DNA from: Sulfolobus sp. A20
Lineage (GTDB): Archaea > Thermoproteota > Thermoprotei_A > Sulfolobales > Sulfolobaceae
Direction of reading: 5' to 3'
Assembly: GCF_001719125.1 (NCBI RefSeq)
Contig: NZ_CP017006.1
Coordinates: forward strand, 248,001 to 312,000
Length of the DNA stretch: 64,000 nucleotides
Position 1 is the first letter of the stretch, and each line of letters starts with the position of its first letter. The notes under the pieces were generated by a model that made no database searches, was not told where the DNA came from, and saw only the letters and a program-made list of their open reading frames with translations. Made by a program: the position numbers and the translations under genes. Shown here one piece after another: positions 18,833 through 39,486 of the stretch.

Positions 18833-20992
18833 TTACCAATCATAACTACTACCTCTTCCCCTAGTTATAATAGCGATACTAAGCAAGATCATTATCGTTA
18901 AAAGTATTATAACAATACTTTGCTCTAGACTAATACCACTTCCATCCGTAGCAGAACCAGAAACGATCTTTACAACAGATATGTTAATCACTTTCATGTG
19001 AACTATAGTAACATAATCCCCAGAATAATGAATAATTGCAATACCAGCTGGCGATCTCCCAGCTGGATTTACAGCAAATACCTTAACCAGAAAAGTTCCA
19101 TTAGATATATTAGTTACAACAGATGTACCTGGTCCTTCATACACTAAACTGCCATTAACGTAAACTAGATAACTCAATGCACCATTAACACTATTCCATT
19201 CGATGTAGAGATCATTACCCAAACCTACTAAAGAAATTTGAGGAGCTGAAGGAGGTAAATAATAGATTATTTTCTCAATAAATCTAGAAGTGCCAGCTGG
19301 ATTAGATGCAACTATAACTAGAGTATAATTTCCCTCTTCAGGTACTTTAAATAAATAGGAGTTATCCAAAGGATTCATAACACTAGATAGTAAAGTTCCG
19401 TTCGGGTAAAACAGTTGTAGAGTAACATTTGCTGGAAAGTCAACTGAGTAATTAACTAATATACCACTTTGTAATTTACTTAAGACAGCTGTTATCTTAG
19501 CTTTAGTTATAGGCGTTACAGCTATAATATAAGGACTACTATTCCCTAACTTATTATATGCGTAAACATACACATCGTAAGTCACATTAGGCACTAAATT
19601 GGTTATAGTTAAACTAGTAGAATTAGTGTAGTAAGATGAAACTACATTACTACCATTCTTAACTACTAAGTAATAGCCCAAAATCGGATAACCTCCAGAA
19701 AATGAGGGAGGAGACCATGATAACGTGACGTTGCCATTACCGTATTTTATAGAATTTATATTAGGTGAATTGGGAACTGAAGCAGGAATAAGCTCAACTA
19801 GATTAGATGGTGAAGAATAACCGATGGAGTTGTAAGCCAAAACCTCAAAGAAATAAGGAACACCATCTTGAAGACCATTTATCGTATAACTAGTCGAATT
19901 CCCAACGTTAACTGAAGTATTAAAGCCATCATTAGACCAGTACATTATCTCATAACCGCTAGCTAAACTGACAGGTGTCCACGATAAACTAACACTCTCG
20001 TTTCCTGAGGCATAGGAAGTTATTTTAGGCGGTAACGGGGGAAACATAAATATAACATCCTGAAATGTAGATACATCAGTAAAACTATTACTCTCCCCGC
20101 CAGCTAGATATAAAACATTACCAACTTGAGTATAACCAAAATCAAAAGCAGGATTAACCAAATAACCAACCCGTCGGAGATTATTATTATAGTAGGCATA
20201 TATCGCATTATTTACCCCTCCAGAACTTGCGGTGAACGTGTAACCTCCTACAATGAAAATTACACCCCTATAATAAGCTAAAGCCCCACCCTTTATCCAG
20301 AAGGGTAAAACACCATTCAATACTGTCCAATGATTACTCTGGGGATTATAAATTAAAATATCATTAGTATAAGCCCCGTAACCGATATATCCTCCCGCTA
20401 TAATCAGATCAGAACCATTAAATACATAAGCCCCATGAGCAGTAGGAACTGGCATATAGCCAATAATAGACCAACTATCATTATTTGGATAAAACACCCT
20501 CACCTCATTAGCAGGGGGAAAATAAATACCGATTAAACCAGTAGTATTCTCTCCACCTACCACGAAGATTTTATTATCATAAACGAAAGCCATTACATCA
20601 TAAGCTGGATCTGGCATATTATTACTTACTACAACCCATTTACCTCCATTAAGCATAAGTACATAAGGAATAGTACCAGAACTATTATACCCCCCTAACA
20701 AATAGATCGTATTATTAAAGACTACAGCTGTACCTCCTATTATATTAAATGGTAAGCTAGGTCCTTGGTACCATGTTCCATTAGAATAAATCCAAACTTG
20801 CCTTGGTGTATTATCTCCACCTATAACATATAATTTGCCATCATAATAAACTAAGGCTGAGTTAGAATCTTGATAAGGTAACGAAGAGACATAATTAGAT
20901 GATACCTTAAAATTTGTTGATGTAGCATGAACAGATATAATAGGCAATAGAGATAAAATCAGTAACACCAATAACAAACTCCGCTTCTTCAT
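18833..20992 (-). CDS. Kelch-propeller and fibronectin-III membrane-anchored surface protein
   Basis: A 719-residue exported protein. A signal peptide (MKKRSLLLVLLILSLLPIIS) is followed by six Kelch-like repeats, each with a GG doublet (LYVIGG, IYLLGG, IFVVGG, LIIAGG, IFIVGG, LYLAGG), enough for a six-bladed beta-propeller. From about residue 325 come fibronectin-III-like domains (VSLSWTPVSLASGYEIMYW; VTLSWSPP) and two more Ig-like units. A C-terminal membrane anchor (SIVIILLTIMILLSIAII) ends the protein. There are many N-X-S/T sequons. It lies 79 bp after the ABC permease gene on the same strand. Adhesion or substrate capture is possible; the function is unknown. Confidence 0.85.
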   Translation of the reverse strand: MKKRSLLLVLLILSLLPIISVHATSTNFKVSSNYVSSLPYQDSNSALVYYDGKLYVIGGDNTPRQVWIYSNGTWYQGPSLPFNIIGGTAVVFNNTIYLLGGYNSSGTIPYVLMLNGGKWVVVSNNMPDPAYDVMAFVYDNKIFVVGGENTTGLIGIYFPPANEVRVFYPNNDSWSIIGYMPVPTAHGAYVFNGSDLIIAGGYIGYGAYTNDILIYNPQSNHWTVLNGVLPFWIKGGALAYYRGVIFIVGGYTFTASSGGVNNAIYAYYNNNLRRVGYLVNPAFDFGYTQVGNVLYLAGGESNSFTDVSTFQDVIFMFPPLPPKITSYASGNESVSLSWTPVSLASGYEIMYWSNDGFNTSVNVGNSTSYTINGLQDGVPYFFEVLAYNSIGYSSPSNLVELIPASVPNSPNINSIKYGNGNVTLSWSPPSFSGGYPILGYYLVVKNGSNVVSSYYTNSTSLTITNLVPNVTYDVYVYAYNKLGNSSPYIIAVTPITKAKITAVLSKLQSGILVNYSVDFPANVTLQLFYPNGTLLSSVMNPLDNSYLFKVPEEGNYTLVIVASNPAGTSRFIEKIIYYLPPSAPQISLVGLGNDLYIEWNSVNGALSYLVYVNGSLVYEGPGTSVVTNISNGTFLVKVFAVNPAGRSPAGIAIIHYSGDYVTIVHMKVINISVVKIVSGSATDGSGISLEQSIVIILLTIMILLSIAIITRGRGSSYDW

Positions 20993-21071
20993 ATTACCTT
21001 TACTTAAGATAAAAAAATTTAAAAACATTTACTATCCTTTCAAGGTAAATCTTGATTACAAGAAAAACTAT

Positions 21072-21863
21072 TTACCTCAAATAATGATTTATAATTCTAA
21101 TTACTACAATAAGAATTATTGAAAAAAGCAGCAAGGAAGCTGAGGCAGTAATTGATGCATTAAAGTAAGTTAGATATTGATTATAAATGTATACTGAAGC
21201 AACGTAGTCTCCATTAAACAACCAACCGGAGACGTATGGCGCTATTATTACGACAGAACCAAATTCACTTATAGCCCTAGCTACAGAAGTTAAGCCGGCT
21301 GAAATTACACCCTTTATGGACAACGGGAAAACTACAGATACGAAAACCCTAAACTCTGACGCACCTAAACCCATCGCATATATCTCATATGAAGTTGGCA
21401 AAGACTCAAAGAAATTTTGAACAGATCTAATGTAAATGGGGGAAGACACTATAATCAATGCTAGTATCAAACCTAGGTAAGAATAATAAAAAATTATGCC
21501 ATGAGAATATAGAAACTTTCCCAAAGGATTTACAGGACTATCGATGAAAACAAGTGCAATACCTACTAGCGGATGAGGTATGGATGCAGGAACGTCAACT
21601 ATAGTCTCTATAACTGGGTTTTTATGCCTAGCCAAATAATAAGCTAAAGGTGTGAAAACAATTACTATGATAGTTACAGCTACTGCAGAGGAGAAGAAGG
21701 TCAAAGCTATAGATGATAAAAGTGATCTACTAAATGCAACAGACTTAATGAAAAACGGACCAAAACCATAAAACAACAAATAGAATATTGGGATAACTAA
21801 AAGAAGGGATAAAAAAATCGATACTACCTTTAATATGTCAAACCGCAGAGAAGTTCCCCGCAT
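21072..21863 (-). CDS. ABC transporter permease, molybdate/tungstate type
   Basis: A 263-residue inner-membrane permease with about six spans and the EAA-type cytoplasmic loop (EIYAMGLGASEFRVFVSVVF) that docks the ATPase. It is similar to ModB/WtpB-type permeases. It overlaps the binding-protein gene by 26 bp. No ABC ATPase gene is present within 15 kb on either side, so the transporter must borrow an ATPase encoded elsewhere. Confidence 0.85.
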   Translation of the reverse strand: MRGTSLRFDILKVVSIFLSLLLVIPIFYLLFYGFGPFFIKSVAFSRSLLSSIALTFFSSAVAVTIIVIVFTPLAYYLARHKNPVIETIVDVPASIPHPLVGIALVFIDSPVNPLGKFLYSHGIIFYYSYLGLILALIIVSSPIYIRSVQNFFESLPTSYEIYAMGLGASEFRVFVSVVFPLSIKGVISAGLTSVARAISEFGSVVIIAPYVSGWLFNGDYVASVYIYNQYLTYFNASITASASLLLFSIILIVVIRIINHYLR

Positions 21864-22983
21864 ACTTCAAAACACCACTATTTAACAAACTCATTATTGG
21901 TTGTGGAACATCAGAAGGACTCTCATAGAATAGTAAAGCTGGGCTAACTGGTGTTACGTGGAACATCGTTAACTCGCTTTCATGAGATAAAATGAACTTT
22001 ATGAACTCATAAGCAGCTTGAGTATTCGACGCGTTTAATGGTACTGTAATATATAGATATACTGAGTTTCCATGAATAGTAAGCGTCTTCCCAGATACAG
22101 TTATATTAAAAGCAAACTGACTATACCAGCTAGTCTCATTTGGATAGTAACCAAAACTTAACCATGGCGGTAATTGAATATACTCTAAATCTTGTGAAAC
22201 GGCATATGATACGTAAGAGAAGGTGAAATCTAACTCTCCAGCCTTCAATGGAGCAACATAATCAGCTGTTGTAGGGGCAACTTTCACGTTAGGATTTTCC
22301 TTAACTAAATCCACAAAGTAACTAATATTATGATTAGCATATAAATATCCCGCCATTTCCAGTATTAGATACGCATATAATCCCTCTGGGTCAGAACTTG
22401 GATTAGCTATACCTAAACTGAACTTAGTCGATAACAAATAGAAGAAATTATACCAATATTTACTCTCATTGGTTTGCATTGCCATAGTGTAATTAGAATA
22501 TAATTCGTTCCAATATGGTGCATTAGTAGTGTAGTTAGAATACACAATGGACATTTGATCTGATAAGAAAGCTATAGCCCAACCAGGATTCCTGCTTCCC
22601 TCAAGCTCTACAGCTTGAATATAAGCTACTGGAATAAACACATTAGCTGGGACAGGCGTCTGTGATGCTATTTGACTTGCTAAAGCGAATGAACCGCCTG
22701 GAACCACGTGAACTTGAATACCAGTAGCATTCTCAAATTGCTTAGCCAAATAATTCAATATCGCAACATAAGCTCCAGCTACATAAACAGTTACGGAACC
22801 CGTAACCGGTGTAGTGGTAGTTGTACTAGGTACAGTTGTAGTTGAGGTAGTTGTGGTTATGGTAACCACGTGAGAAGGTCTAATCGTTATAAAGTACACG
22901 GCAACAGCAATTACAGCTATTATAACAATTACAGCTATTATTATACCTTGAAGTCTGGTGATTGCCTTATTCTTACTCGACAT
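21838..22983 (-). CDS. ABC transporter substrate-binding protein, molybdate/tungstate type
   Basis: A 381-residue exoprotein. An N-terminal membrane segment (IIIAVIVIIAVIAVAVYFIT) leads into a Thr-rich linker (residues about 40-65) that lifts the binding domain off the membrane, as is usual in Sulfolobales. The domain begins VTVYVAGAYVAILNYLAKQF and contains GGSFALASQI and TPVPANVFIPV, resembling the ModA/WtpA oxyanion-binding fold. The substrate (tungstate, molybdate or another oxyanion) cannot be fixed by eye. It is first in an operon with the permease and probably the Kelch protein. Confidence 0.82.
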   Translation of the reverse strand: MSSKNKAITRLQGIIIAVIVIIAVIAVAVYFITIRPSHVVTITTTTSTTTVPSTTTTTPVTGSVTVYVAGAYVAILNYLAKQFENATGIQVHVVPGGSFALASQIASQTPVPANVFIPVAYIQAVELEGSRNPGWAIAFLSDQMSIVYSNYTTNAPYWNELYSNYTMAMQTNESKYWYNFFYLLSTKFSLGIANPSSDPEGLYAYLILEMAGYLYANHNISYFVDLVKENPNVKVAPTTADYVAPLKAGELDFTFSYVSYAVSQDLEYIQLPPWLSFGYYPNETSWYSQFAFNITVSGKTLTIHGNSVYLYITVPLNASNTQAAYEFIKFILSHESELTMFHVTPVSPALLFYESPSDVPQPIMSLLNSGVLKYAGNFSAV

Positions 22984-23590
22984 ATTTACTTATAGTAATA
23001 TTTCCCTTAAAAAATTTTTCCGATAGAACATATTAGAAAGGACATAATTATTTTTATTTTTATGTGCAATTAGGTTTTTAAAATGCTAGGTATTAAAAGA
23101 AAAATAATAAAAATCAGCGTTAATCATGAGTAATACTAAAACGTCCTAATTTGTATATCTGCTGAACCCTCTATGACACATGATTTATCAATTAAAGCTC
23201 GAATAACAAAGAGAGGATAAAGCCTAACCTTTTACTGTTAGTCGTGCATTGTTCTCAATCGAGTCGTCTTATAGTGAGGAGTTTTTTATCCACTCCCTTA
23301 TTTCCTTTAAGGTTTAATAATCAAATTAATTTATTAACCTGTTTTTTAATGAAGGAAATTATAATGCCGTTCTTAAGGTATAAAATAAACTATAAAATGT
23401 GTTGATAGAGTGTGGTCATGAGGATTTAAACTTAGCAGAATCTAATTAACATGAATAGGCTAATTAAGATTTATTTTTTATACCCATATAACGGCACTCT
23501 AAGGGAAATGCTCATTTTCTCAGTAGATATATAAAAAATAAAGTAATTTCTCTCTACATTAATAATTTTACTAATTTTTCTCACGATTTT
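22984..23590. other. long intergenic region
   Basis: About 600 A/T-rich bases without a frame I can support. The only element I can name is a 17-bp sequence at 23419-23435 (TGAGGATTTAAACTTAG) that recurs inverted at 38300-38316 upstream of the ATPase gene. Confidence 0.4.
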
Positions 23591-23627
23591 GAGTCTACCG
23601 TCTGTGACGTGATCAGAAGGTAGATTC
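23591..23627. repeat. inverted repeat / hairpin
   Basis: GAGTCTACC (23591-23599) pairs with GGTAGATTC (23619-23627) with one wobble, and inside it TCTG pairs with CAGA, leaving a 9-nt loop TGACGTGAT. It lies about 70 bp before the next gene. It could be a structured leader, an operator or debris of a small mobile element. Confidence 0.4.
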
Positions 23628-23695
23628 AAAAAAGCAATAGAATATTACTGTATTAGCCCTCTTAAAAACCTAACCTCTCAGAAAAAATATATGAG

Positions 23696-24100
23696 ATGCT
23701 AGGAAAAATCATCGTAGTCCTCATAATAATCCTAATAGGAGCGTTCCTAATAACACACCTAAACTTATTTTATCATCCCCAGATAACATCAACTAAAGCT
23801 GAAGAAATTACCAGAACCTCAATCCTTAGGTCTATCACAATGTATCAGTTCTCCATCTCAACCAATTCCACTTTAGCATATATATTTCCTCTTAAACTAA
23901 ATGGTACACATAACGTAACAATAAACATTATTACGACAAAACCGATAAACCTGACAGTTTTAGACAACTCTAACGTAGTATCTACAACTATTATCCATCC
24001 TTCAGAGTTCCAAAAGAGCTTCCTATTAAACGGTACAGTAGAATTCAAATTTCTAGGGGAAGGAGAAGTAAACGCTAACGTTTCGATACAAGTCGAATAA
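23696..24100 (+). CDS. small membrane-anchored exoprotein, unknown function
   Basis: A 134-residue protein with an N-terminal membrane helix (IIVVLIIILIGAFLITHLNLF) and a beta-rich exterior domain with several sequons (NSTL, NGTH, NVTI, NGTV). It looks like the short N-anchored proteins common in Sulfolobales. I recognise no family. A TATA-like CTTAAAAA lies about 32 nt upstream of the ATG. It shares its strand with the TatD gene 33 bp downstream. Confidence 0.6.
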   Translation: MLGKIIVVLIIILIGAFLITHLNLFYHPQITSTKAEEITRTSILRSITMYQFSISTNSTLAYIFPLKLNGTHNVTINIITTKPINLTVLDNSNVVSTTIIHPSEFQKSFLLNGTVEFKFLGEGEVNANVSIQVE

Positions 24101-24133
24101 GCGTTTTTATTTCTTAAATCAAAACCCTTTTTT

Positions 24134-24820
24134 ATGATCAAATATTTTGACGCTCATTGTCACTACTCTTATTTGAAGAAAAATTATGAAGAGTACTTTA
24201 TATCTGCAGTATCAATGGATTACGAATCTGCAATTGACACGTTATCCCTAAAGAGAATAAACATCTTAACGGGAGTAGGAATCCATCCATGGAAGGTTCA
24301 TGAGGAAAAACTTGAAAAAATAATCCCTTTAATAGATAAGGCGGACTTCGTAGGCGAGGTAGGATTAGACTATCGCTTCGCTAAGGCTCCTAAAGAAGTT
24401 CAAATAAAATACTTCATAGAACAAATAGAAAGAGGAAAGGAAAAACTAATAAACGTACACGCATTAGACGCTTGGAAAGATGTTCTTGAAATCTTGATTA
24501 GACACGATATTAAAAAGGCAATAATTCATTGGTATACTGGACCAGTAGACTTGTTAAAGGATATAGAGGGAATGGGATACTTCATTACGATAAATCCATC
24601 AGTTACATTTCAGAAAAAACATCGAATTATTTTAGAGAAAGCGGACCCAAAAATCCTATTGACTGAAAGCGATGGAGGATATGAGTATAGGGGTAAGTTA
24701 CTTGAACCAACCGATATACCAAATGCAATATCTTTCATAGGAAAAACCCTTAACCTAGACGAAAACCAAGTAATGAAAATAGTTGAGGAAAACTTCAAAA
24801 AAGCATTTTCAATTAAATAA
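24134..24820 (+). CDS. TatD-family metal-dependent hydrolase
   Basis: A 228-residue TIM-barrel hydrolase of the TatD family; relatives are metal-dependent deoxyribonucleases. Metal ligands are visible in order: FDAHCHY (HxH at residues 8 and 10), GEVGLDY (Glu), NVHAL (His), IIHWY (His) and TESDG (Asp). A TATA-like GTTTTTAT centred about 27 nt before the ATG indicates a leaderless mRNA. The substrate is not known from sequence. Confidence 0.88.
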   Translation: MIKYFDAHCHYSYLKKNYEEYFISAVSMDYESAIDTLSLKRINILTGVGIHPWKVHEEKLEKIIPLIDKADFVGEVGLDYRFAKAPKEVQIKYFIEQIERGKEKLINVHALDAWKDVLEILIRHDIKKAIIHWYTGPVDLLKDIEGMGYFITINPSVTFQKKHRIILEKADPKILLTESDGGYEYRGKLLEPTDIPNAISFIGKTLNLDENQVMKIVEENFKKAFSIK

Positions 24821-25112: not shown

Positions 25113-25660
25113 TTACATATTCTCGAGGTTAAAGATGAGACGCAAAACTAAGTTTTTGTCTCCTACTCCTAGGAAGTCGTAAAGTAGTCCTATCTCAGAT
25201 AATATGAAAGTTTTTTGTAGTCATAAGCATGAGCTATTGCATTTTTCAGTTGATAAAAGCCCACGTAGTCTCTGTGCTTCATCGATTACAATAATTAGTC
25301 TTTTCTCGTTTAAGTGGTCAAACAAATCTGCTAACGATAGCGAGTCCCTTCCTTTCCATTTAAACTCTATTGAGTTTCCTAGTATTCTAACTCCCCTTAC
25401 TATTGATATCACGCCTTTTATCTTGTCTAGGACTGATAAGAAGCTGTTTGAGAATAGGCTGTATAAGTCCTTTCTGCCGTTTTAACTTTCTACAGTCTAT
25501 TAAGACTTCCCTTAACTCTTTTAGTGCGGTAGAGTGTTGATGTTTTGCCTATTCTTCTTATGCCTAATAGTGTTAGGAGGGGTCTGTTTACATTTTATAT
25601 CCTTTTTTCCCTGTCAAATAGACCATGTCTGTTCGTTTTTGGACTTTCATCTAGTAACAA
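25113..25660 (-). pseudogene. 5' fragment of an archaeal ATPase gene (fragment A)
   Basis: This stretch matches residues 1 to about 182 of the intact ATPase at 38431-39486. Matching pieces are GIRRIGKTSTL (Walker A), LIDCRKLK, DLYSLFSNSF, VRILGNSIEFKWKGR, LADLFDHLNEK, LIIVIDEAQRLRG (Walker B) and SEIGLLYDFLG. At least three frameshifts and a short deletion break the frame. Homology stops near 25153, just after residue 182. The next part of the protein is found at 29182-29311 on the other strand. Confidence 0.85.
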
Positions 25661-25661
25661 C

Positions 25662-25693
25662 TTCTCCCCCAGAATATATATTCTCCCCCAGAA
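25662..25693 (-). promoter_or_regulatory. duplicated operator-like motif of the ATPase fragment
   Basis: Two perfect copies of TTCTGGGGGAGAA (minus strand) flank TATATA, with a 19-bp period, directly before the TTG start of ATPase fragment A. Each unit is itself a small inverted repeat (TTCT...AGAA). The same arrangement precedes the intact ATPase at 38398-38429. Confidence 0.6.
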
Positions 25694-25791
25694 GTCATAA
25701 ACCTTCAAGTGAGTTATTTAATCTCTTTAATCATATTTGGAAAAGATTATATCATTTTATATAACAACTTCTCTCCGAAAAAAGTTTTTCA

Positions 25792-26334
25792 CTACGCACT
25801 ACTAAATTTGCCCAACAGCTGATTTAAGCCCATGTTAACTAGTATAGTCCCTATTAAACCTAATATAATTCCGTAGTAGGGAATAACCGTGAATATTGAC
25901 AAAACAGCTCCTAAAGCCATAAGCGTATTATTGTACAGAGTACCTACTTTCGCTAATCCAGAGCCAATAAAAGCTATGCCTATAACCATAAGCAAAATTA
26001 CCGCTAGATATAAAAAACCCAACATTGTTACACTCTCCGAAATCGGCAACATCCTTAGAACTAACAATACAAAACTAGCTATAATCATGTATCCACCAAA
26101 AATTCCAATAGTAAAACCCTTCCCCAACTGCTTGAACGACCTCACAAACCTGGGTACTGATAAGAAGATGAAAACAGCAAATAACCCTAAAGCCACACCT
26201 AAGACTACTATGCCTTCAACAGTGGTTCCACTTATCTCGCCATAGCTGGGAATAAGGTAAATTAAAATTAGCGAAATTGGTAATCCTATATAGTATTTTG
26301 CCCCCTTTTTCAGAGTTATTAGACTCTGAGCCAT
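25792..26334 (-). CDS. polytopic membrane protein, DUF973-like
   Basis: A 180-residue protein with about five hydrophobic spans (IGLPISLILIYLIP; GIVVLGVALGLFAVFIFL; GIFGGYMIIASFVLLVL; FLYLAVILLMVIGIAFI; IIPYYG-like end). It resembles the Sulfolobales-specific DUF973 membrane proteins, of unknown role. ATG 26334 is chosen because ATTTAAATA lies about 27 nt upstream; the frame is open to 26442 but the extra residues are not membrane-like. It is inside the segment proposed to have been inverted. Confidence 0.6.
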   Translation of the reverse strand: MAQSLITLKKGAKYYIGLPISLILIYLIPSYGEISGTTVEGIVVLGVALGLFAVFIFLSVPRFVRSFKQLGKGFTIGIFGGYMIIASFVLLVLRMLPISESVTMLGFLYLAVILLMVIGIAFIGSGLAKVGTLYNNTLMALGAVLSIFTVIPYYGIILGLIGTILVNMGLNQLLGKFSSA

Positions 26335-26611
26335 TAATACAATATTGCTAAACTTTTTATTTAAATTTTTCTTTCCCTTCTTTAATGTACGCCCAATCAT
26401 TATGGTTATTAATTTAAATTGAACTTGATACGCAACGAACAATCACGTAAGAACACCTCCTTAACCATGGTACTCACGCTTCAATCCTTCTCAGATGACT
26501 GCCTAGATGCATATTATTCCATTATCCGCTCAATTCCTAAGCCGAGCGTATTCCTATATAAATGCCAACCAGCATCTCCTCTATTAAAGGACTGAAGACA
26601 CTACATAGGAT

Positions 26612-26923
26612 ATGCTGACCTCCTGCCCGCCTAAAGGTTCCCTTAGGGCGGTTCACAAGTTTACCGCCTTCATAACTAGTGGGCTTTAGAGCCCCTCCGT
26701 TCATCCAGCAGTAGACCAATGACTGGATCTTCAGCCAAATTACCCCTATCCCTTTTCCCTCACTCCACCCTCCTTAGGACTCAAGAATAAGTATTATTGA
26801 AGAGGGACACATACACATATTTAACCCCTTTTGGGGCTTCCCTCCACTTCAACAACAATCGTTATATTGAAAAAACTTTTATTCCGCTTAAAACGCGAGG
26901 CTTGTCTCCCGTTTTGTCAGCAT
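26612..26923 (-). mobile_element. IS200/IS605-derived remnant with right end and probable omega-RNA scaffold
   Basis: The minus strand ends with a GC-rich hairpin (GGCGG/CCGCC, 26627-26651) followed by AGGAGGTCAG (26624-26615), the right-end pattern of archaeal tnpB elements. The stretch 26640-26715 also reads as a TnpB-like C-terminus (MNGGALKPTSYEGG), the region that overlaps the omega RNA in such elements. No transposase core remains. The element is bounded by an 8-bp inverted repeat, ATGCTGAC (26612-26619) and GTCAGCAT (26916-26923), making a 312-bp non-autonomous unit. Positions 26335-26611 and 26924-27065 hold no supported gene. Confidence 0.5.
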
Positions 26924-27065
26924 CAAGTTATTATAAACACTAACCATAGAGGATAAGGGCTGAAAATACTTCTGCCTTATTTCCATCCTTCACCAGTGCT
27001 TTAGTAGTTTGGAGAATGTTATAGACCCTTAATTGCTCTGAATAGACCAAAGATAAGCATATAAC

Positions 27066-27755
27066 TTAATATTGAACTACTCTAGCTACCCTGTTTGCGA
27101 AAAGCGCTGAAATAACCCCAATTATTATATCTCCCGGCACGTAAGTGATGAATAGGAACAATATTCTTTGAGCATTCGGAGCGAAGCCGAAAATTAAGGG
27201 GGCGAAGAAACCATAAGTGAAGAAGGGATGAACAAAGGAGAAGAAGAATCCTAATATAGCCCCCTCTACTATTGCAAGTAAGGCAGATAGTTTACCTGCA
27301 CCTATGCCAAAGATCTTTCTGTTCGTTAAGAATATTGTTATATCAGCCATTAGACCGTAGGTTAGTATATCTTCTATTAGCCATAATGGTTCGCCTCCAA
27401 ATCCGAAGTGAAGGAGGTCACTAGTTATGTCATATATTCCCATAGCGAACATTCCAGAGCCTATTTTTCTAATTAATCCTACAGTCACGAAGAAGGCTAC
27501 TATCCTTAACCAAACTGGTGGGTTAACTATGGGGTAAATTGGAGATGGCAAGTAGATTATATCGCCAATTACATGATCAGCTACAGCTACTACTGCGCCA
27601 CCGATAGCAGCATAAACGAAGTCGATGGTTGTCATTCTCTCACTACTCTTCTTAATGATTATTACGGCTATGATACTAGCTATAACAAAGTAGGCTACAA
27701 CTACTTCCCAAGGCGTCATTCCAGGTTTTAGGGTATACGCTCCGTAACTTGCCAT
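27066..27755 (-). CDS. polytopic membrane protein, ECF-transporter S-component-like
   Basis: A 229-residue protein with six to seven hydrophobic segments. The order of short loops and Gly-rich helices (GGAVVAVADHVIGDIIY; EDILTYGLMADITIFL; YVPGDIIIGVISALFANRV) resembles substrate-binding S components of energy-coupling-factor transporters, including YkoE-like thiamine-precursor carriers. The vitamin cannot be named, and no ECF ATPase or T component is nearby. A TTTAAATA box centred about 25 nt before ATG 27755 supports a leaderless start. Confidence 0.55.
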   Translation of the reverse strand: MASYGAYTLKPGMTPWEVVVAYFVIASIIAVIIIKKSSERMTTIDFVYAAIGGAVVAVADHVIGDIIYLPSPIYPIVNPPVWLRIVAFFVTVGLIRKIGSGMFAMGIYDITSDLLHFGFGGEPLWLIEDILTYGLMADITIFLTNRKIFGIGAGKLSALLAIVEGAILGFFFSFVHPFFTYGFFAPLIFGFAPNAQRILFLFITYVPGDIIIGVISALFANRVARVVQY

Positions 27756-28380
27756 GTAAAAATATGAACTATTAGTAATATTTAAACTTAATCCTGTTTT
27801 TTTAGCAATAATTCTTCGCGAGTGTGTTTACTAATAAAAAGATTTAGAAATAACTAAGAATTCTATGAAGTATTGGAGTTAAAAATACTCATTGTGCTGT
27901 TATTTTTTTCATGAGAGATAATTATCTCTTATTGTTTTATAATCTAGTGTAAATAGTATTATTGCCTTTTTGTAAATTGCTAGGGGTATGGAAAACGAGG
28001 GTTTATCAATTTGATCACCTTTTTATTTTAAAAACATTTTGTTATAATATCGGTTGGTAAATCTTTTGTGAACTCCTTATGGTGTTGTTATGAAGGGTTG
28101 AATTTGGGCAAAACTATTGTATCAGGAATGCACTTCTGCACCATATAATATGAACCCGCTTAATGGTTATTTTATTTCTTACGTATACGTACGAGATATT
28201 TTTATGCATATTAAAACTGAACTTAAGTATACTTAGATAAAAACATATTATTTTTCATAATGCGTATACGATTTATCAGATAACTTCTTTCTAATTAAAA
28301 ACTTAATATACTAAGCAAAATCGTGGTCACTTTAAAAATCTGGGAAAAATAATATACTCCTCCATTTTTTACTAAATGTT
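27756..28380. other. long intergenic region with palindromes
   Basis: No frame is supported here. It holds a perfect 16-bp palindrome AGAGATAATTATCTCT (27914-27929), a 12-bp palindrome TACGTATACGTA (28180-28191) and a further CGTATACG (28263-28270), about 80 bp apart and upstream of the SDR gene. These could be regulator sites. Confidence 0.4.
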
Positions 28381-29118
28381 ATGATAGCCATAATTACTGG
28401 TGCATCTAAAGGGATTGGAAGGGCTACCGCTGAATTGTTAAAGAATAATGGATATACTGTTATATCAATCTCGAGGACTAAGCCTGATATTGGTGATGTA
28501 ACATATACTGTTGATGTTAGTGATAAGGAGAATGTGTTTTCAGTCGTGAAGAATGTATTATCTAAATTTGGGAAGATAGACGTACTGGTAAATAATGCAG
28601 GATTCGGAATCTATGGTTCTTTTTTAGAAACAGATTTAAGTGAAGAAGAGTATATGATTAAGACGAATTTGTTAGGTCCGATATACTTCATGAAGGCTGT
28701 TCTTCCTCACATGGTATCGAGAAGAAGTGGCAGTATAGTTAATATTATTTCTGAGGCCGCTTACGTAAGTACTCCTAAGCTTTTAGTTTACTCAGCTACT
28801 AAATCAGCGTTAAGTAGTATAACAAATGGTTTATGGGCTGAGATGAGAAAGTATAACGTTAAGGTTAGTGGGATCTACCCTGGTCCAGTGAAGACTAATT
28901 TCTCTTCCCATCCGTCCTTTAAGAAGGCAGGAAGCGATCCTTTTGCTAAATACGCAGTAGAGCCGGAGCATGTTGCTAGGGCAGTTTTAAAGGCTATAAA
29001 GACTGGAAAGAGGGAAATATATGTTCCTTCTAAGCTTAAACTTGATCCTTATTTCCTAAAATTAAGTAACCTATTTCAGAGTTTGACTTATGGTTTTATA
29101 AGCAAATACTTTGCTTAA
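28381..29118 (+). CDS. short-chain dehydrogenase/reductase
   Basis: A 245-residue classical SDR enzyme. The cofactor site is TGASKGIGRA with NNAGFG after the fourth strand; the catalytic Ser lies in VNIISEAA and the Tyr/Lys pair in YSATKSA. NAD(P)H-dependent oxidoreduction is certain for the family; the substrate is unknown. Arg in SISRTKPD after the second strand is compatible with NADP use. It is alone on its strand between decayed sequences. Confidence 0.9.
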   Translation: MIAIITGASKGIGRATAELLKNNGYTVISISRTKPDIGDVTYTVDVSDKENVFSVVKNVLSKFGKIDVLVNNAGFGIYGSFLETDLSEEEYMIKTNLLGPIYFMKAVLPHMVSRRSGSIVNIISEAAYVSTPKLLVYSATKSALSSITNGLWAEMRKYNVKVSGIYPGPVKTNFSSHPSFKKAGSDPFAKYAVEPEHVARAVLKAIKTGKREIYVPSKLKLDPYFLKLSNLFQSLTYGFISKYFA

Positions 29119-29181
29119 CATATGCTTAGCTATAGTCCTATCTTTGTTTATTTCTAGGCTTACTTGCCTTAGCCAAAAATT

Positions 29182-29311
29182 GTAGAGTCATCTTACCACT
29201 TTATGGAAGATACTACTACACCTTGGAGAAGGCAATAGAGAAGGTGGTTTAAAGAGAAATCAGTAGAAGACGATATAGAGAAGTCGAATGGAATACCGTG
29301 CTGGCTCATTG
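29182..29311 (+). pseudogene. internal fragment of the archaeal ATPase gene (fragment B)
   Basis: This plus-strand stretch matches residues about 184-241 of the intact ATPase: PLYGRYYYTLEKAIEK, and after a deletion DIEKSNGIPCWLI against the intact DGIPGWLT. It begins where fragment A stops and ends where fragment C begins. Joining 29309 to the minus strand at 32440 restores TGG CTC ATA TTC GGG GCT GGC AGA (WLIFGAGR), matching WLTFGANR in the intact gene. Confidence 0.75.
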
Positions 29312-29460
29312 TAAAGTACTTTAAGTTATAAATTTAAGGAGTCAACAATAGAGCGATTTCCACTCCCGTCACTTCAAACATTCACGCTTTAAGGTTAAGC
29401 AATGTCTCTTCCTAAAAGCTGGTTCAAATTTAGAAGAATCCTTAAACTCACTTTTTTCAG

Positions 29461-29724
29461 TTGGTGCCTTTTGCCTCAGTTTTCGTCTTTATACTTATGT
29501 TTTTAGTAACTTTTCTTGCTCTTTTGGATAACATATTATACGCCAGTTTACGTTATAGTTTATTAGTTGCATTCTTATGCACTTTTCTTGACTCTCTATA
29601 TAATGTAGAGGAGACTGACCTTATATTATGGGAGGATAGATGTCTAGCTAGGACGTTATGGGTTAATGTGGTGAACAGATACAAGGTTGTCCAAGACGCT
29701 ATTTTGAGGTTGATGAAATTGTGA
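29461..29724 (+). CDS. doubtful 87-residue ORF
   Basis: An open frame from TTG 29461 with a hydrophobic N-terminal half (VFVFILMFLVTFLALLDNIL) and a soluble end (LARTLWVNVVNRYKVVQDAIL). I recognise no family and see no good TATA box or Shine-Dalgarno sequence. It lies in a decayed zone just before the orphan gene and may be debris. Confidence 0.25.
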   Translation: MVPFASVFVFILMFLVTFLALLDNILYASLRYSLLVAFLCTFLDSLYNVEETDLILWEDRCLARTLWVNVVNRYKVVQDAILRLMKL

Positions 29725-29776
29725 GTGGTGAGTTGTTATTATTACATAAAACTTTTAATTTAGAAGGAAAAATAGT

Positions 29777-31195
29777 ATGGGAGGGAGAAGGGGTTTGGAA
29801 AGCACCTCGAATCCCCCATTACCTATATCTGCGAGTGATGTATCAGCCCTAGGTGCAATGATACAATTTACCCTAGACTATACCACAATAAGAGATCAAG
29901 GTGTTTGTACTGGGAGAGGATTAAAGAAAGTATTAGAAAGTGAGGCTAAATATGAGGTATACCCGGCTTTAACAGTCTCTGGTAGAGTGTCCACTAGTAC
30001 TACAAACATTTTTCAGATATTAAGGCATGGGATAATAATAAGGACGGCTGAGGGGAATTACTATTATATAGGAGGGAAGTCTAACTATTGGATACAGGAT
30101 AGGGCGTTACATGCTTATCAAGGGGGTACTGAGTTCGTCTTAAGCTCTGAATCGGGTAGTAGGCTCTTCAAGGAGATAAGGGACTCACCATCTAATATTG
30201 TAGTGTTACAAGTGAGGGGGATAAGGATATCGGGTACGTGGTATCAACCTAGCCAGTTAGAAGGATGTCAAACCCCAGTATTAGGTTGGATAATGGAATG
30301 GATACAATCTACTAGTGGCGTAGGTGCTGGAGTAATAATGAACTATGTAGCACAGTTTACTGATTTACGGAAGGACTTTATCGAAGTTCCTGGAAATCTG
30401 GTCTACGAGTCTGGTGGACATTACACTACTGACCCGTTACAAGCGATTCTTAGGTCTTTTTCAACGAAGCCGCCTTTCCCATATTTTATGATACTAACGA
30501 AGATAGTCTCTCAGCTGGAGAGCTCTTTAGGTATACCTTTACAGATTCCATACTCGTTTGGATTTGTTCTGTTCCCTGCTAGTGTTATGAAGGACTTCTG
30601 TGAGTTCTTTTTAGTTGGTAAACCTCAAGAATACTGTAATTATTTAGTCAGTGATACTACATATAATGAGTCAATAATTGGGGCTCCAATATTTTCCTCA
30701 ATTATATGCCCTAGTGGCTGTAAGAGGTTAGGTTTAGCAGGCCTAGTGTATAAAGGCCAAATGGTGGGTGACTTTTTAGGTTTAGCCTATGTGAAGCCTC
30801 CTACAGATTACACCGATGCCGGTATTCAAGCTTATGCTCAAGAATTGGGTGTTTCTAATGCTCTTCAGATTAGTAAATCGCTAGTGGGTGGTGCTAGTAG
30901 GGCTGAGGCGGAGCTCATTTCAGTTTTTGGTCTTTCAGCTACTGTTGCTAGTGCTATAATAAATGTTTTAGTGACATGGTATGAGGACTGGCAGAGGGTG
31001 TTTGAGGAGGCTAAGCCTTATGCTGAAGAAGCTAGGAATGTTGTAAACGAGGTCAGGGATTTCTTGAATAAGATTAGGGAGTATAGGTTGTTAAGTTATG
31101 TTGATGAATGCTTAGCTGAGACTATTATTAGCAATGAGCCATTAGAATATTGGTATGATGCTACGAAGGGGTGTGTGACAAGTAAATTAGGTTAG
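29777..31195 (+). CDS. orphan 472-residue protein, unknown function
   Basis: A long, intact frame that I cannot match to any family. It has no signal peptide. It begins with a Pro/Ser-rich segment; the middle is mixed alpha/beta with Trp-rich patches (GTWYQPSQLEGC, WIMEWIQS). A hydrophobic stretch near residue 395 (ATVASAIINVLVTW) precedes a charged, probably coiled-coil region (VFEEAKPYAEEARNVVNEV). Eight Cys are spread through the chain (C44, GCQ, FCE, YCN, ICPSGC, ECL, GCV), allowing disulfides. TTTTAATTT lies about 20-27 nt before ATG 29777. It sits within a proposed inverted segment and ends exactly where ATPase fragment D begins. Confidence 0.7.
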   Translation: MGGRRGLESTSNPPLPISASDVSALGAMIQFTLDYTTIRDQGVCTGRGLKKVLESEAKYEVYPALTVSGRVSTSTTNIFQILRHGIIIRTAEGNYYYIGGKSNYWIQDRALHAYQGGTEFVLSSESGSRLFKEIRDSPSNIVVLQVRGIRISGTWYQPSQLEGCQTPVLGWIMEWIQSTSGVGAGVIMNYVAQFTDLRKDFIEVPGNLVYESGGHYTTDPLQAILRSFSTKPPFPYFMILTKIVSQLESSLGIPLQIPYSFGFVLFPASVMKDFCEFFLVGKPQEYCNYLVSDTTYNESIIGAPIFSSIICPSGCKRLGLAGLVYKGQMVGDFLGLAYVKPPTDYTDAGIQAYAQELGVSNALQISKSLVGGASRAEAELISVFGLSATVASAIINVLVTWYEDWQRVFEEAKPYAEEARNVVNEVRDFLNKIREYRLLSYVDECLAETIISNEPLEYWYDATKGCVTSKLG

Positions 31196-31331
31196 CCTCC
31201 TTATATGTCTGGGAACTCGTAGCCTTTTATCATACTACTCTTCTTGAAGGCATTCAAGTAGTTTGCTCCAGCTGTTCTCACCTTGGGCTATACACTTTAA
31301 AGCGTTCTTATACCTAACTACCTCTGCCTTT
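31196..31331 (-). pseudogene. 3' fragment of the archaeal ATPase gene (fragment D)
   Basis: On the minus strand this matches residues about 284-347 of the intact ATPase: RYKNALKC, GENSWSKLLECLQ and, after a deletion of about 20 codons, KSSMIKGYEF. It is frameshifted. In the gene it would follow fragment C directly; the two are separated only by the insertion at 31339-32332. Confidence 0.8.
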
Positions 31332-31338
31332 ATGCCTT

Positions 31339-32332
31339 ATCGTGTAACTTTATCCCTCCAATTTTCCAGCTTAATTTAACATCACGTAGACGTGGAAACC
31401 ACTCCTAAGGCATCAAGAATACAACCAGACTCGTAATACCTAACAACCCATCTCATCATTATCCCTCATCAACGAGCAAATAATCCCTATCCTTAATATC
31501 AAGCTTAAGCTCATAATTAACGCTAGGTAACTTGTGAAAAGCAAGTGAGGTAGTAAAGTCCTTTAGCCCAGCAAGTAAAAGGCTAATACAAGGAGTGAAA
31601 CCTAGGCTTAAAAGGACAATTTGGGAAATCAAACCTATTCTCGCCCTCACTCTAAAAATACTTTTCCACAGTAAAGAAAATTCAATTCATATCAACCAAA
31701 TTGTTATCCATACACAAGCTTTCCTCACTTTGTAAAAGTAATTTTCTATCAAGTCTGAATTAAATTATTTTGACAAACTTTTTATGCATTTACATCAGAT
31801 TAAAATCAGATTAAAACACATGAACAAGACTTTATTGATAATTGGAGTTGTACTAATAGTGCTTGCAATTGTAATATTTTTTATAAGTAGTTATCTTACA
31901 GCCTCTTCTATATCCCATTCCTTCCACTTCACTACAATATATTTGACTCCAGGTGAGACTTACAACATTACAATCGATAAGACGTCAATTCTCTTTTACA
32001 ACACAACTCTTCCTGTAGCCTTTTACGGCTCTTCATTAACAATCCTCACTCGCTCATCTGAAAACGGATGCAATACACTAGTCCTAGAGCCAACGTCCAC
32101 TCCTGCAGTATTTTACATACATAATAACAACCAAGCGTGTGTGGATAACAATTTCATCCAACCCCATATTCCACCTTATGCCAATAGATTTCGAGTAAAT
32201 TGTATTGAAGAATATTTTTAGTCATTATTGTGTTTCTTGTTAAGTTCTATCTGAAGTCTATGCTTGCTAGTTTTAGGCTTCTTACTAAGCTTCTCTTGTC
32301 AAAAGTTTCAACACCATGTTTTAACCAAGAGA
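31339..32332. mobile_element. insertion of about 994 bp flanked by a 7-bp direct repeat
   Basis: ATGCCTT occurs at 31332-31338 and 32333-32339, exactly 1001 bp apart. Removing one copy plus the sequence between them rejoins ATPase fragments C and D at the position, within one base, predicted by the intact gene. The insert carries a 133-residue membrane protein gene and, on minus at 31459-31650, a 63-codon frame (VNYELKLDIKDRDYLLVDEG) of unknown origin. I see no terminal inverted repeats and no recognisable transposase, so its class is unknown. Confidence 0.5.
31820..32221 (+). CDS. membrane-anchored exoprotein, possibly truncated
   Basis: A 133-residue protein with one N-terminal span (LLIIGVVLIVLAIVIFFISSYL) and an exterior beta-rich domain with sequons (NITI, NTTL). 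It resembles Sulfolobales proteins that usually carry a second span at the C-terminus. Here the end (YANRFRVNCIEEYF) looks unrelated, so the gene may be truncated or frameshifted after residue about 105. ATG 31820 is preferred to ATG 31784 because it starts directly before the span. Confidence 0.5.
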   Translation: MNKTLLIIGVVLIVLAIVIFFISSYLTASSISHSFHFTTIYLTPGETYNITIDKTSILFYNTTLPVAFYGSSLTILTRSSENGCNTLVLEPTSTPAVFYIHNNNQACVDNNFIQPHIPPYANRFRVNCIEEYF

Positions 32333-32339
32333 ATGCCTT

Positions 32340-32443
32340 GTAAACTGAGCCTCTATTAGGTTCTCTAATTCGTTTAATGCCAAGTTTATCGCGATCTCTT
32401 TAACCTCTTCCATCCCTTTAATAGTCTGCCAGCCCCGAATATG
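32340..32443 (-). pseudogene. internal fragment of the archaeal ATPase gene (fragment C)
   Basis: On the minus strand this matches residues about 241-276 of the intact ATPase: IFGAGRLLKG, then after a frameshift EEVKEIAINLALNELENLI against EEVRDIAINVALNELENLI. It starts exactly where fragment B ends and runs into the insertion that separates it from fragment D. Positions 32444-32772 hold only degenerate frames. Confidence 0.8.
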
Positions 32444-32772
32444 CTTTTACTATTGCTAACTCGTAGTATATGGCTTTTTCCTTCTAAATCATGGGTTTGC
32501 AAAGCCTTATACAGGGAAAATAGTTTAACGGTTTTTATAAGGATTTTGCCCACCCTGGTAAGATATTTGCCTATAATGAGGACAAGGAGAGTATGCACAA
32601 GTATGTTAATGTAGAAATATACTTACTACTGCTTGATGTGGTTTTGTATTATACATTCTCTTTAACTTCAGCCGTATGGAAAAGTGCATGAGCACACTTA
32701 TGAATCCTCAAACATACTAACCACTACACACATAAAATCTGTTATAACTGGCTATTATAGGTAGCGTAAGAC

Positions 32773-32828
32773 AATTATAACGTTAGAGAATAAATAAACT
32801 AATTATAACGTTAGAGAATAAATAAACT
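32773..32828. repeat. perfect tandem repeat, 2 x 28 bp, beyond the 23S 3' end
   Basis: Two identical, directly adjacent 28-bp units (32773-32800 and 32801-32828), each beginning AATTATAACGTTAGAG and ending AATAAACT. They lie 49-104 nt past the 23S processing stem, in the trailer of the rRNA transcript. On the transcribed strand each unit contains T-rich runs (AGTTTATTTATT), as in archaeal terminators. Confidence 0.75.
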
Positions 32829-37799: not shown

Positions 37800-38389
37800 A
37801 TATATTCCATCACTAATACGTGCGTTTTAGGATGGTTAATCATTTAAGGTAATTTGTTTTTCTTTGGTCTACTACTTTGTCTAAAAATTTTTTATTAGAC
37901 TCCCTACTAAGAATTAAATAATTTTAAAATTTTCCCTCATTATACTTTAATATAGAAAAAAATTAAGGAAAAATATTGAAAACTTTCTAAGATGCAATAC
38001 TTTATCTTTATTCTCTGTTTTTTATAGTTGGAGTAAAAAATCTGGTACTAGAATGAATTTGCTTAATGCTCGTAATGTCATACATTGTAGTAGGAAATAT
38101 TGCTCGCAAGTTGACGTAATAAACTTTATAATTAAGACTTCATGACGATATTAGGATATTAATTCATTTATTTTAATATAAATTAAAACATTATGAATTA
38201 GAGGAGAATAAATTAGTAAGATAAGGACTCATTTTTAGTAAAATTGTTATTTATTTGGTGTAGAGAATATCACTTACAACTAGATTGCTGATGATTTTCC
38301 TAAGTTTAAATCCTCACGATGAATCACTCAGAGAGAAGGTCTGAATTATTAAATGACTAAAAACGTAAAGAATAAGCGAGGTGTAATAG
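37800..38389. other. A/T-rich intergenic region
   Basis: About 590 bp between the divergent rRNA and ATPase promoters, with no supported frame. It contains the inverted copy (38300-38316) of the 17-bp sequence seen at 23419-23435. Confidence 0.4.
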
Positions 38390-38429
38390 TTTATAACTTC
38401 TGGGGGAGAATATGTATTCTGGGGGTGAA
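38390..38429 (+). promoter_or_regulatory. ATPase promoter with duplicated operator-like motif
   Basis: TTTATAA (38390-38396) is a TATA box. TTCTGGGGGAGAA (38398-38410) and TTCTGGGGGTGAA (38417-38429) follow, separated by TATGTA, a 19-bp period. The expected transcription start (about 38420) falls inside the second unit, so a bound protein would block transcription. The arrangement is conserved in ATPase fragment A, where the rest of the gene has decayed. Confidence 0.55.
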
Positions 38430-38430
38430 G

Positions 38431-39486
38431 TTGTTATTTGATGAAAGACCTAAAACGAGAAGACAAGAGCTATTCGATAGGGATATAGAAATAGAGGAGA
38501 TAAAGAGTAGCATAAATAGACCTCTCCTAGTAATATCTGGAATCAGAAGAATAGGTAAAACGTCTACACTTTTAGTAGCATTAAACGAGCTAGGAAGAGA
38601 TTACGTATTAATAGACTGTAGAAAGTTAAAGGAGAATTATGGTAGACAAGATTTGTATAATCTCTTCTCAAGTAGTTTTTCTACAATTATTGATAAGATA
38701 AAGGATTTACTCTCAAGGGTGAGAGGGGTAAGCATATTAGGAAATTCAATAGAATTTAGATGGAAAGGTAGAAATTCAGTCTCCTTAGCTGACTTGTTTG
38801 ATCATCTAAACGAGAAAAAACTAATTATAGCAATAGATGAGTCACAAAAGTTAAGAGGACCATTATCAAATGAGGTAAGGGAAGCGATAGCTCACGCATA
38901 TGATTATGACAGAAACTTAACCTTTATTTTGACCGGCTCTGAAATTGGCTTACTCTACGATTTTCTAGGCATAGAAGATAGAGAATCTCCGCTTTACGGA
39001 AGATACTATTATTCAATAAATCTTGACAGATTTAGGAGGGGGAAAGCAATCGAGTTCTTAAGAAAAGGTTTTGACGAAATATCTATGAAAGTTAATGATG
39101 AGATAATAGAGAAATTAGTAGAATTCTTTGACGGAATACCGGGTTGGCTTACCTTTGGGGCTAACAGATTTTTAGAGGGGAGAAAGATAGAAGAAGTAAG
39201 AGATATTGCAATTAATGTAGCCTTAAATGAGTTAGAGAACTTAATAGGAGCTAAGAGAAGGGTGTCGGAGATAGCAGGTAGAAGATATAAAAACACGTTA
39301 AAGTGCTTAGCATTGGGAGAGAATAGTTGGAGCAAATTACTCAATTGCTTGCAAAGAGCTGAAGGAAGCACTATATCTAGTAGTGTAATGGACAACATAA
39401 TAACTAATCTAGAGAAAAGTAGTATAATAAAGGATTACGAATTCTTAGATCCAATATATAAGGAGGCAAGCAAAAAATTAAACTGA
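38431..39486 (+). CDS. archaeal P-loop ATPase (PF01637-type)
   Basis: A 351-residue STAND/AAA-like ATPase of the predominantly archaeal ATPase_2 family. The N-terminal signature LFDERPKTRRQELFDRD is followed by Walker A GIRRIGKTS (residues 37-45), Walker B LIIAIDESQ (about 131-139) and the sensor FILTGSEIG. A winged-helix-like C-terminus follows. The family is numerous in Sulfolobales and its cellular role is mostly unknown. TTG 38431 matches the family N-terminus and fragment A; GTG 38425 is an alternative. Remnants of a close paralogue are scattered over 25.1-32.5 kb. Confidence 0.88.
   Translation: MLFDERPKTRRQELFDRDIEIEEIKSSINRPLLVISGIRRIGKTSTLLVALNELGRDYVLIDCRKLKENYGRQDLYNLFSSSFSTIIDKIKDLLSRVRGVSILGNSIEFRWKGRNSVSLADLFDHLNEKKLIIAIDESQKLRGPLSNEVREAIAHAYDYDRNLTFILTGSEIGLLYDFLGIEDRESPLYGRYYYSINLDRFRRGKAIEFLRKGFDEISMKVNDEIIEKLVEFFDGIPGWLTFGANRFLEGRKIEEVRDIAINVALNELENLIGAKRRVSEIAGRRYKNTLKCLALGENSWSKLLNCLQRAEGSTISSSVMDNIITNLEKSSIIKDYEFLDPIYKEASKKLN

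Follow-up and report, generated by a model that had tools for sequence, protein, structure and literature searches.

Four pieces of an ATPase gene lie in opposite orientations next to the rRNA operon of Sulfolobus sp. A20, an archaeon from Costa Rica (PMC5127849), and they raise the question of whether one gene was taken apart here and by which rearrangements. The A20 genome is one contig of 2,688,317 bases, and the window that we analysed is a stretch of 64,000 bases within it (bases 248001-312000). The rRNA operon occupies the minus strand of this window from ~32.87 kb, with the pieces, termed A, B, C and D, on its 23S side and an intact paralogue on the other side (Table 1). The best reading of the sequence is that the four pieces are one decayed copy of an ATPase_2 (PF01637) gene. 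It is likely, in our judgement, that this single gene was broken by an inversion of 29310-32440 and by a further rearrangement between A and B that went beyond a lone 4.0-kb inversion, that it received an ISC774 insertion, and that the joints were made by end joining.

Table 1. Positions of the pseudogene fragments and neighbouring features in the window
Feature	Position	Strand	Description
Fragment A	25153-25660 (match from 25155)	minus	residues 1 to ~183 (184 by tblastn/blastn); frameshifted, three frames
CAAAAA at A/B joint	25153-25158	minus	inverted match to 29174-29179 plus
Upstream control region of A	25661-25705 (~45 bp)	minus	two tandem palindromes typical of the ATPase_2 family
Truncated DUF973 gene	25792-26442	minus	between A and B; Pfam PF06157, profile 58-201 of 309
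g229	27066-27755	minus	unnamed protein, between A and B; 83% identical copy in G005
SDR gene	28381-29118	plus	same strand as neighbour TatD in all informative relatives
Fragment B	29180-29309	plus	~residues 184-241; internal deletions
CAT at B/C joint	29307-29309	plus	inverted match to 32441-32443
g472	29777-31195	plus	normally just downstream of 23S, pointing away; reversed relative to 23S in A20
Fragment D	31196-31331 (match 31207-31315)	minus	~residues 284-347
ISC774-like positions 1-534	31332-31715	minus	outer end at 31715
g145	31784-32136	plus	3' end cut short by element; longer paralogue G000:C1:1140300-1141100
ISC774-like positions 529-802	32137-32352	minus	outer end at 32137
Fragment C	~32348-32440 (match from 32345)	minus	~residues 241-276
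Intact ATPase_2 paralogue	38353-39486 (also given as 38431-39486)	plus	16S side of rRNA operon; used for comparison

Four fragments of an ATPase_2 gene

Searching the window with the intact gene (tblastn/blastn) recovered fragments A, C and D directly, and fragment B as short collinear pieces from 29196 on, each of them weak. The intact paralogue belongs to the ATPase_2 family (68.4 bits to PF01637 versus a gathering score of 33.2), and the fragments were assigned to this family through their alignment to it. Alignment scores of A, B, C and D (291, 42, 58 and 55) exceeded those of all 500 dinucleotide shuffles (maxima of 37, 37, 33 and 36), while the opposite strands of the four fragments did not rise above the 500 shuffles. 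In the order A-B-C-D the fragments can be aligned along the full length of the intact gene and of its homologues, without overlap and in opposite orientations, which bears out the tiling described in an earlier note on this DNA. Two boundaries given there had to be moved: fragment A ends at 25153-25159 rather than at 25113, with no match in 25113-25152, and the outer end of C, placed at 32340, belongs to a mobile element, so that the boundary lies at ~32348-32352.

The pseudogene is ~70% identical in DNA to the intact A20 gene overall, and A is 72-73% identical to the intact gene and to a homologue at locus L009; the upstream control region of A is better conserved than its coding part. Fragment B has lost ~50 bases through internal deletions and A carries frameshifts, and the pseudogene is therefore old. 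It is dead, no function can be inferred for it, and nothing at the pseudogene suggests a programmed switch. Assembly errors can yield inversions at short matches, and the analysis used the published sequence alone, so the inverted order might be an error of that sequence. Frameshifts, deletions and identities of 60-73% show separate decay of each piece, only the insertion sequence recurs elsewhere, and the whole lies in a single contig; we regard an artefact as extremely improbable.

An inversion recorded at the B/C joint

Once the inversion of 29310-32440 is undone, the joint between B and C is restored exactly, gap-free and in frame, as GGCTCAT followed by ATTCGGGG. The end of B (GGAATACCGTGCTGGCTCAT) and the start of C on the minus strand (ATTCGGGGCTGGCAGA), when joined, keep both length and frame in comparison with every homologue shown. 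The CAT that had been reported at both breakpoints is present, but a 3-base match alone carries no weight.

The orientation of g472 lends independent support to this inversion. An orthologue lies ~0.5-5 kb from the 3' end of the 23S gene and points away from it in five relatives (G011, G002, and copy b of each of G003, G028 and G019), and in the g472 tree the A20 copy groups with these away-pointing copies. G003 has one copy in each orientation, its reversed copy a being a duplicate within that genome, and the reversed copies from G028 and G019 cluster apart. The A20 gene faces 23S, and with 29310-32440 turned back it takes up the usual arrangement of the relatives. The inversion of ~3.1 kb (~29.31-32.44 kb) proposed in the earlier note is thus upheld by a base-exact joint and by gene orientation in five relatives.

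Several further observations concern this region. The unnamed g472 family has members next to 23S in a number of Sulfolobaceae genera, frequently as inverted pairs, has no Pfam or NCBIfam match, and had no relatives that we could find in phages and viral contigs. A PaREP1-like peptide (EKAIYYELAIVKA, 32441-32500, minus strand) with broken frames may have been cut at the second breakpoint, and an exact tandem duplication of 28 bases (32773-32828) lies just downstream of 23S.

A probable single gene copy and its family

Separate trees of A and of B, C and D combined placed the pseudogene at the same node, rather than with different paralogues, the outcome that the earlier note had set as a refutation. 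In both, it is sister to a group made up of the intact A20 gene and the copies of G010 and G003, with the G022 copy outside; support values around it were 0.96 and 0.70 in the A tree, and 0.72 and 0.94 in the tree of the other fragments. We favor a single gene copy because the fragments share this node, do not overlap, and meet exactly at the B/C joint. The alternative that they are remnants of at least two ATPase copies that decayed in complementary ways draws on the presence of other ATPase_2 copies in A20, among them a third that is truncated (L002, residues 1-126), and on the movement of the family between genomes. The lack of overlap, the in-frame, base-exact joint and the common tree position speak against it, and we consider it improbable.

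As for the family as a whole, the intact paralogue is 84-87% identical to the G003 and G010 copies (87% to G010), while SDR and TatD of these genomes are only 52-73% identical to those of A20 (52-67% for G010). This difference suggests that the ATPase family moves between genomes by horizontal transfer. The third A20 copy (G000:C1:2641852-2645223) breaks off at residue 126, precisely where an ISC774-type element ends, and the remainder of that gene was not found. Across Sulfolobaceae (loci L009-L037), ATPase_2 genes carry two tandem palindromes over the promoter and start codon, with ACTTCTGGGGCAGAAGT occurring twice; in A20 they lie at 38388-38430 and 25661-25705 (minus). Both palindrome arms have changed together in L026 and L037 (CTAACAGGGTGTTAG twice) and in L035 (to TTACGTCGACGTAA). 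The palindromes look like an operator co-evolving with the gene, and the C-terminal winged helix of the family (PF01637 and MCM_C match) could perhaps mediate self-regulation.

Gene order around the A/B joint

The joint between A and B has 9-12 surplus bases and so is not base-exact, although CAAAAA is present at both breakpoints as originally described. The order of neighbouring genes was compared across the relatives in which TatD and SDR are seen together. The two genes share one strand in six species of the genus (G012-G017) and in G022, G023, G029, G030 and G010, either adjacent or at most ~2.3 kb apart. In the four members of the genus in which 23S can be placed, the run 23S, g134, TatD, SDR, sbp, permB and kelch lies entirely on the 23S strand. 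A20 has kept the orientation of sbp-permB-kelch relative to 23S, with g134-TatD and SDR both reversed and with A, the DUF973 gene and g229 (a 54% identical pseudogene of which lies near 23S in G016) between g134-TatD and SDR.

An inversion of 25153-29179 would be expected to leave SDR reversed with respect to TatD in comparison with the relatives, and in A20 the two genes are co-oriented as they are in the relatives. Undoing this inversion alone puts SDR tail-to-tail with TatD, an order seen in no relative. The 4.0-kb inversion is thus not the whole story, since the relatives keep TatD and SDR on one strand. A signed gene-order search required at least four inversions from a genus-like ancestor, at least three from a G010-like ancestor, and two from the ancestor implied by the earlier note; one inverted block transposition, counted as a single event, also fits the gene orders. 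On gene order, the minimum would be three to four inversions, or else a block transposition together with one inversion. Either SDR was inverted too or the A-DUF973-g229 block was transposed, and the sequence fits either path.

Of the two inversions first proposed, the one at 29.31-32.44 kb stands, and the one at 25.15-29.18 kb does not stand as a lone event. A history of exactly two simple inversions (~4.0 and ~3.1 kb) plus an insertion, and nothing else, would suffice to rejoin the fragments, and both inversions are steps in several of the shortest paths. Its implied ancestor, with TatD and SDR tail-to-tail, matches no relative and calls for at least one more inversion, which makes this history unlikely.

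Within 18833-24820 of the window, g134-TatD is reversed relative to sbp-permB-kelch when compared with the six species of the genus. In G010, which belongs to another genus, SDR-TatD is likewise reversed relative to sbp-permB, and for this reason the wider TatD-SDR flip may predate A20 or may have happened twice. The search for a relative with an uninterrupted ATPase at the place of the pseudogene, which the earlier note had named as supporting evidence, found no intact copy there, so no intermediate state was seen among the relatives. Among the genome contigs, no closer relative of A20 exceeded 85% identity for SDR, and the locus is not in one piece in G005, whose SDR and g229 are the closest. 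Between SDR and sbp, and upstream of g134, the intergenic DNA is too diverged for breakpoints to be placed by eye.

An inside-out ISC774 copy between C and D

At the joint between C and D, ~14-17 bases are missing, and the 1.0 kb that separates the two fragments had 92 matching pieces in the A20 genome. In the other genome copies, the right part of the query runs directly into its left part. These ISC774-type copies measure ~590-800 bp, have inverted ends of 18 bp and, if intact, are flanked by target duplications of 8 bp (such as AAGGAAGG, ATTAGAAG and GATGTTAG). One 802-bp copy (L106), which the window copy matches by DNA, encodes a 199-aa transposase scoring 220.1 bits to the ISC774 model of the IS6 family (NCBIfam NF033588; cut-off of 200). 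The window copy is cut at ~position 530, inside the transposase gene, and its halves are swapped around g145, whose truncation, by comparison with its longer paralogue, falls where the element begins. The single insertion of the original proposal is accordingly present between C and D, and its content can now be identified as a gene fragment plus an ISC774 copy turned inside out.

No 8-bp target duplication was found at the outer ends of the window copy. Two shorter candidates were dropped: a 7-bp duplication (ATGCCTT), as longer ISC774 copies (L093) contain the same seven bases twice, and a 4-bp duplication (AAGC) around the outer ends, as the family makes 8-bp duplications. The A20 genome contains dozens of ISC774 copies (L093-L106 among them), including short versions of 230 bp, and the A20 genome paper listed nine IS elements, all IS200/605 or IS607 (PMC5127849).

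Proposed course of events and comparison with known systems

A well-supported step in the history of the gene is the inversion of 29310-32440, between points sharing CAT/ATG, which would have cut it after codon 241 and carried C and D away together with g472. A further rearrangement presumably cut the gene at ~codon 183 and moved A, DUF973 and g229 past SDR; the separation itself is plain, and the path may have been a flip of SDR as well or a movement of the A block as an inverted transposition. An ISC774 copy, opened inside its transposase gene, would have entered between C and D along with the g145 piece. The simplest, one-step route to this insert would be a small circle, made of the element and the g145 piece, that opened inside the element.

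Elements of the IS6 family are able to make inversions by replicative transposition within a chromosome. Copies of ISC774 are numerous in A20, one of them within the pseudogene, so such transposition might have produced the inversions. It would leave an IS at each joint, and none is present at 25153, 29179, 29309 or 32441; the only ISC774 copy in the window is the one between C and D. We consider this origin very improbable. As the joints contain neither an IS nor, within the window, a long repeat, illegitimate end joining at short stretches of matching bases is the probable origin of the inversions. Inverted matches of 3 and 6 bases are present at the joints; they could be chance, and microhomology end joining is plausible here. 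Sulfolobus islandicus has been seen to carry out alternative end joining (PMC8708640).

The locus is a real pseudogene and a well-preserved record of local genome shuffling, an event of a known and ordinary kind. A small inversion has here left its footprint in a crenarchaeon to the exact base, at a joint free of transposons and long repeats, and this bears on how such archaea mend DNA breaks when long homology is lacking. The case is also a caution for such genomes, in which gene remnants on opposite strands can all come from a single gene. A more speculative idea, which we think rather doubtful, is that small inversions in Sulfolobaceae recur at a hot spot between 23S and TatD-SDR, and that the pseudogene would record several of them exactly, made by a repair pathway for which a few matching bases suffice.

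Among known systems, the window copy resembles ISC774 (IS6) in DNA but differs in being opened inside the transposase gene, inside-out, and without an 8-bp duplication. IS26, a bacterial IS6-family element, is known to form circles that include adjacent DNA (PMC11102541). Translocatable units of the IS26 type belong to the same IS family, and the inside-out order seen here is what insertion of a circle is expected to give; the A20 case differs in that the host gene meets the IS at a point within the element and not at one of its ends, and in that the circle is putative. Inversions driven by an integrase in Thermococcales (PMC5495485) likewise occur in a hyperthermophilic archaeon, but they are large chromosomal events, whereas those in A20 span 3-4 kb and no integrase gene was recognised at the joints. 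The locus also resembles prokaryotic pseudogenes broken by inversion, in which pieces on opposite strands tile one gene and breakpoints fall inside it; the A20 pseudogene differs in combining two separate breaks in one gene with an IS insertion, all within 7 kb.
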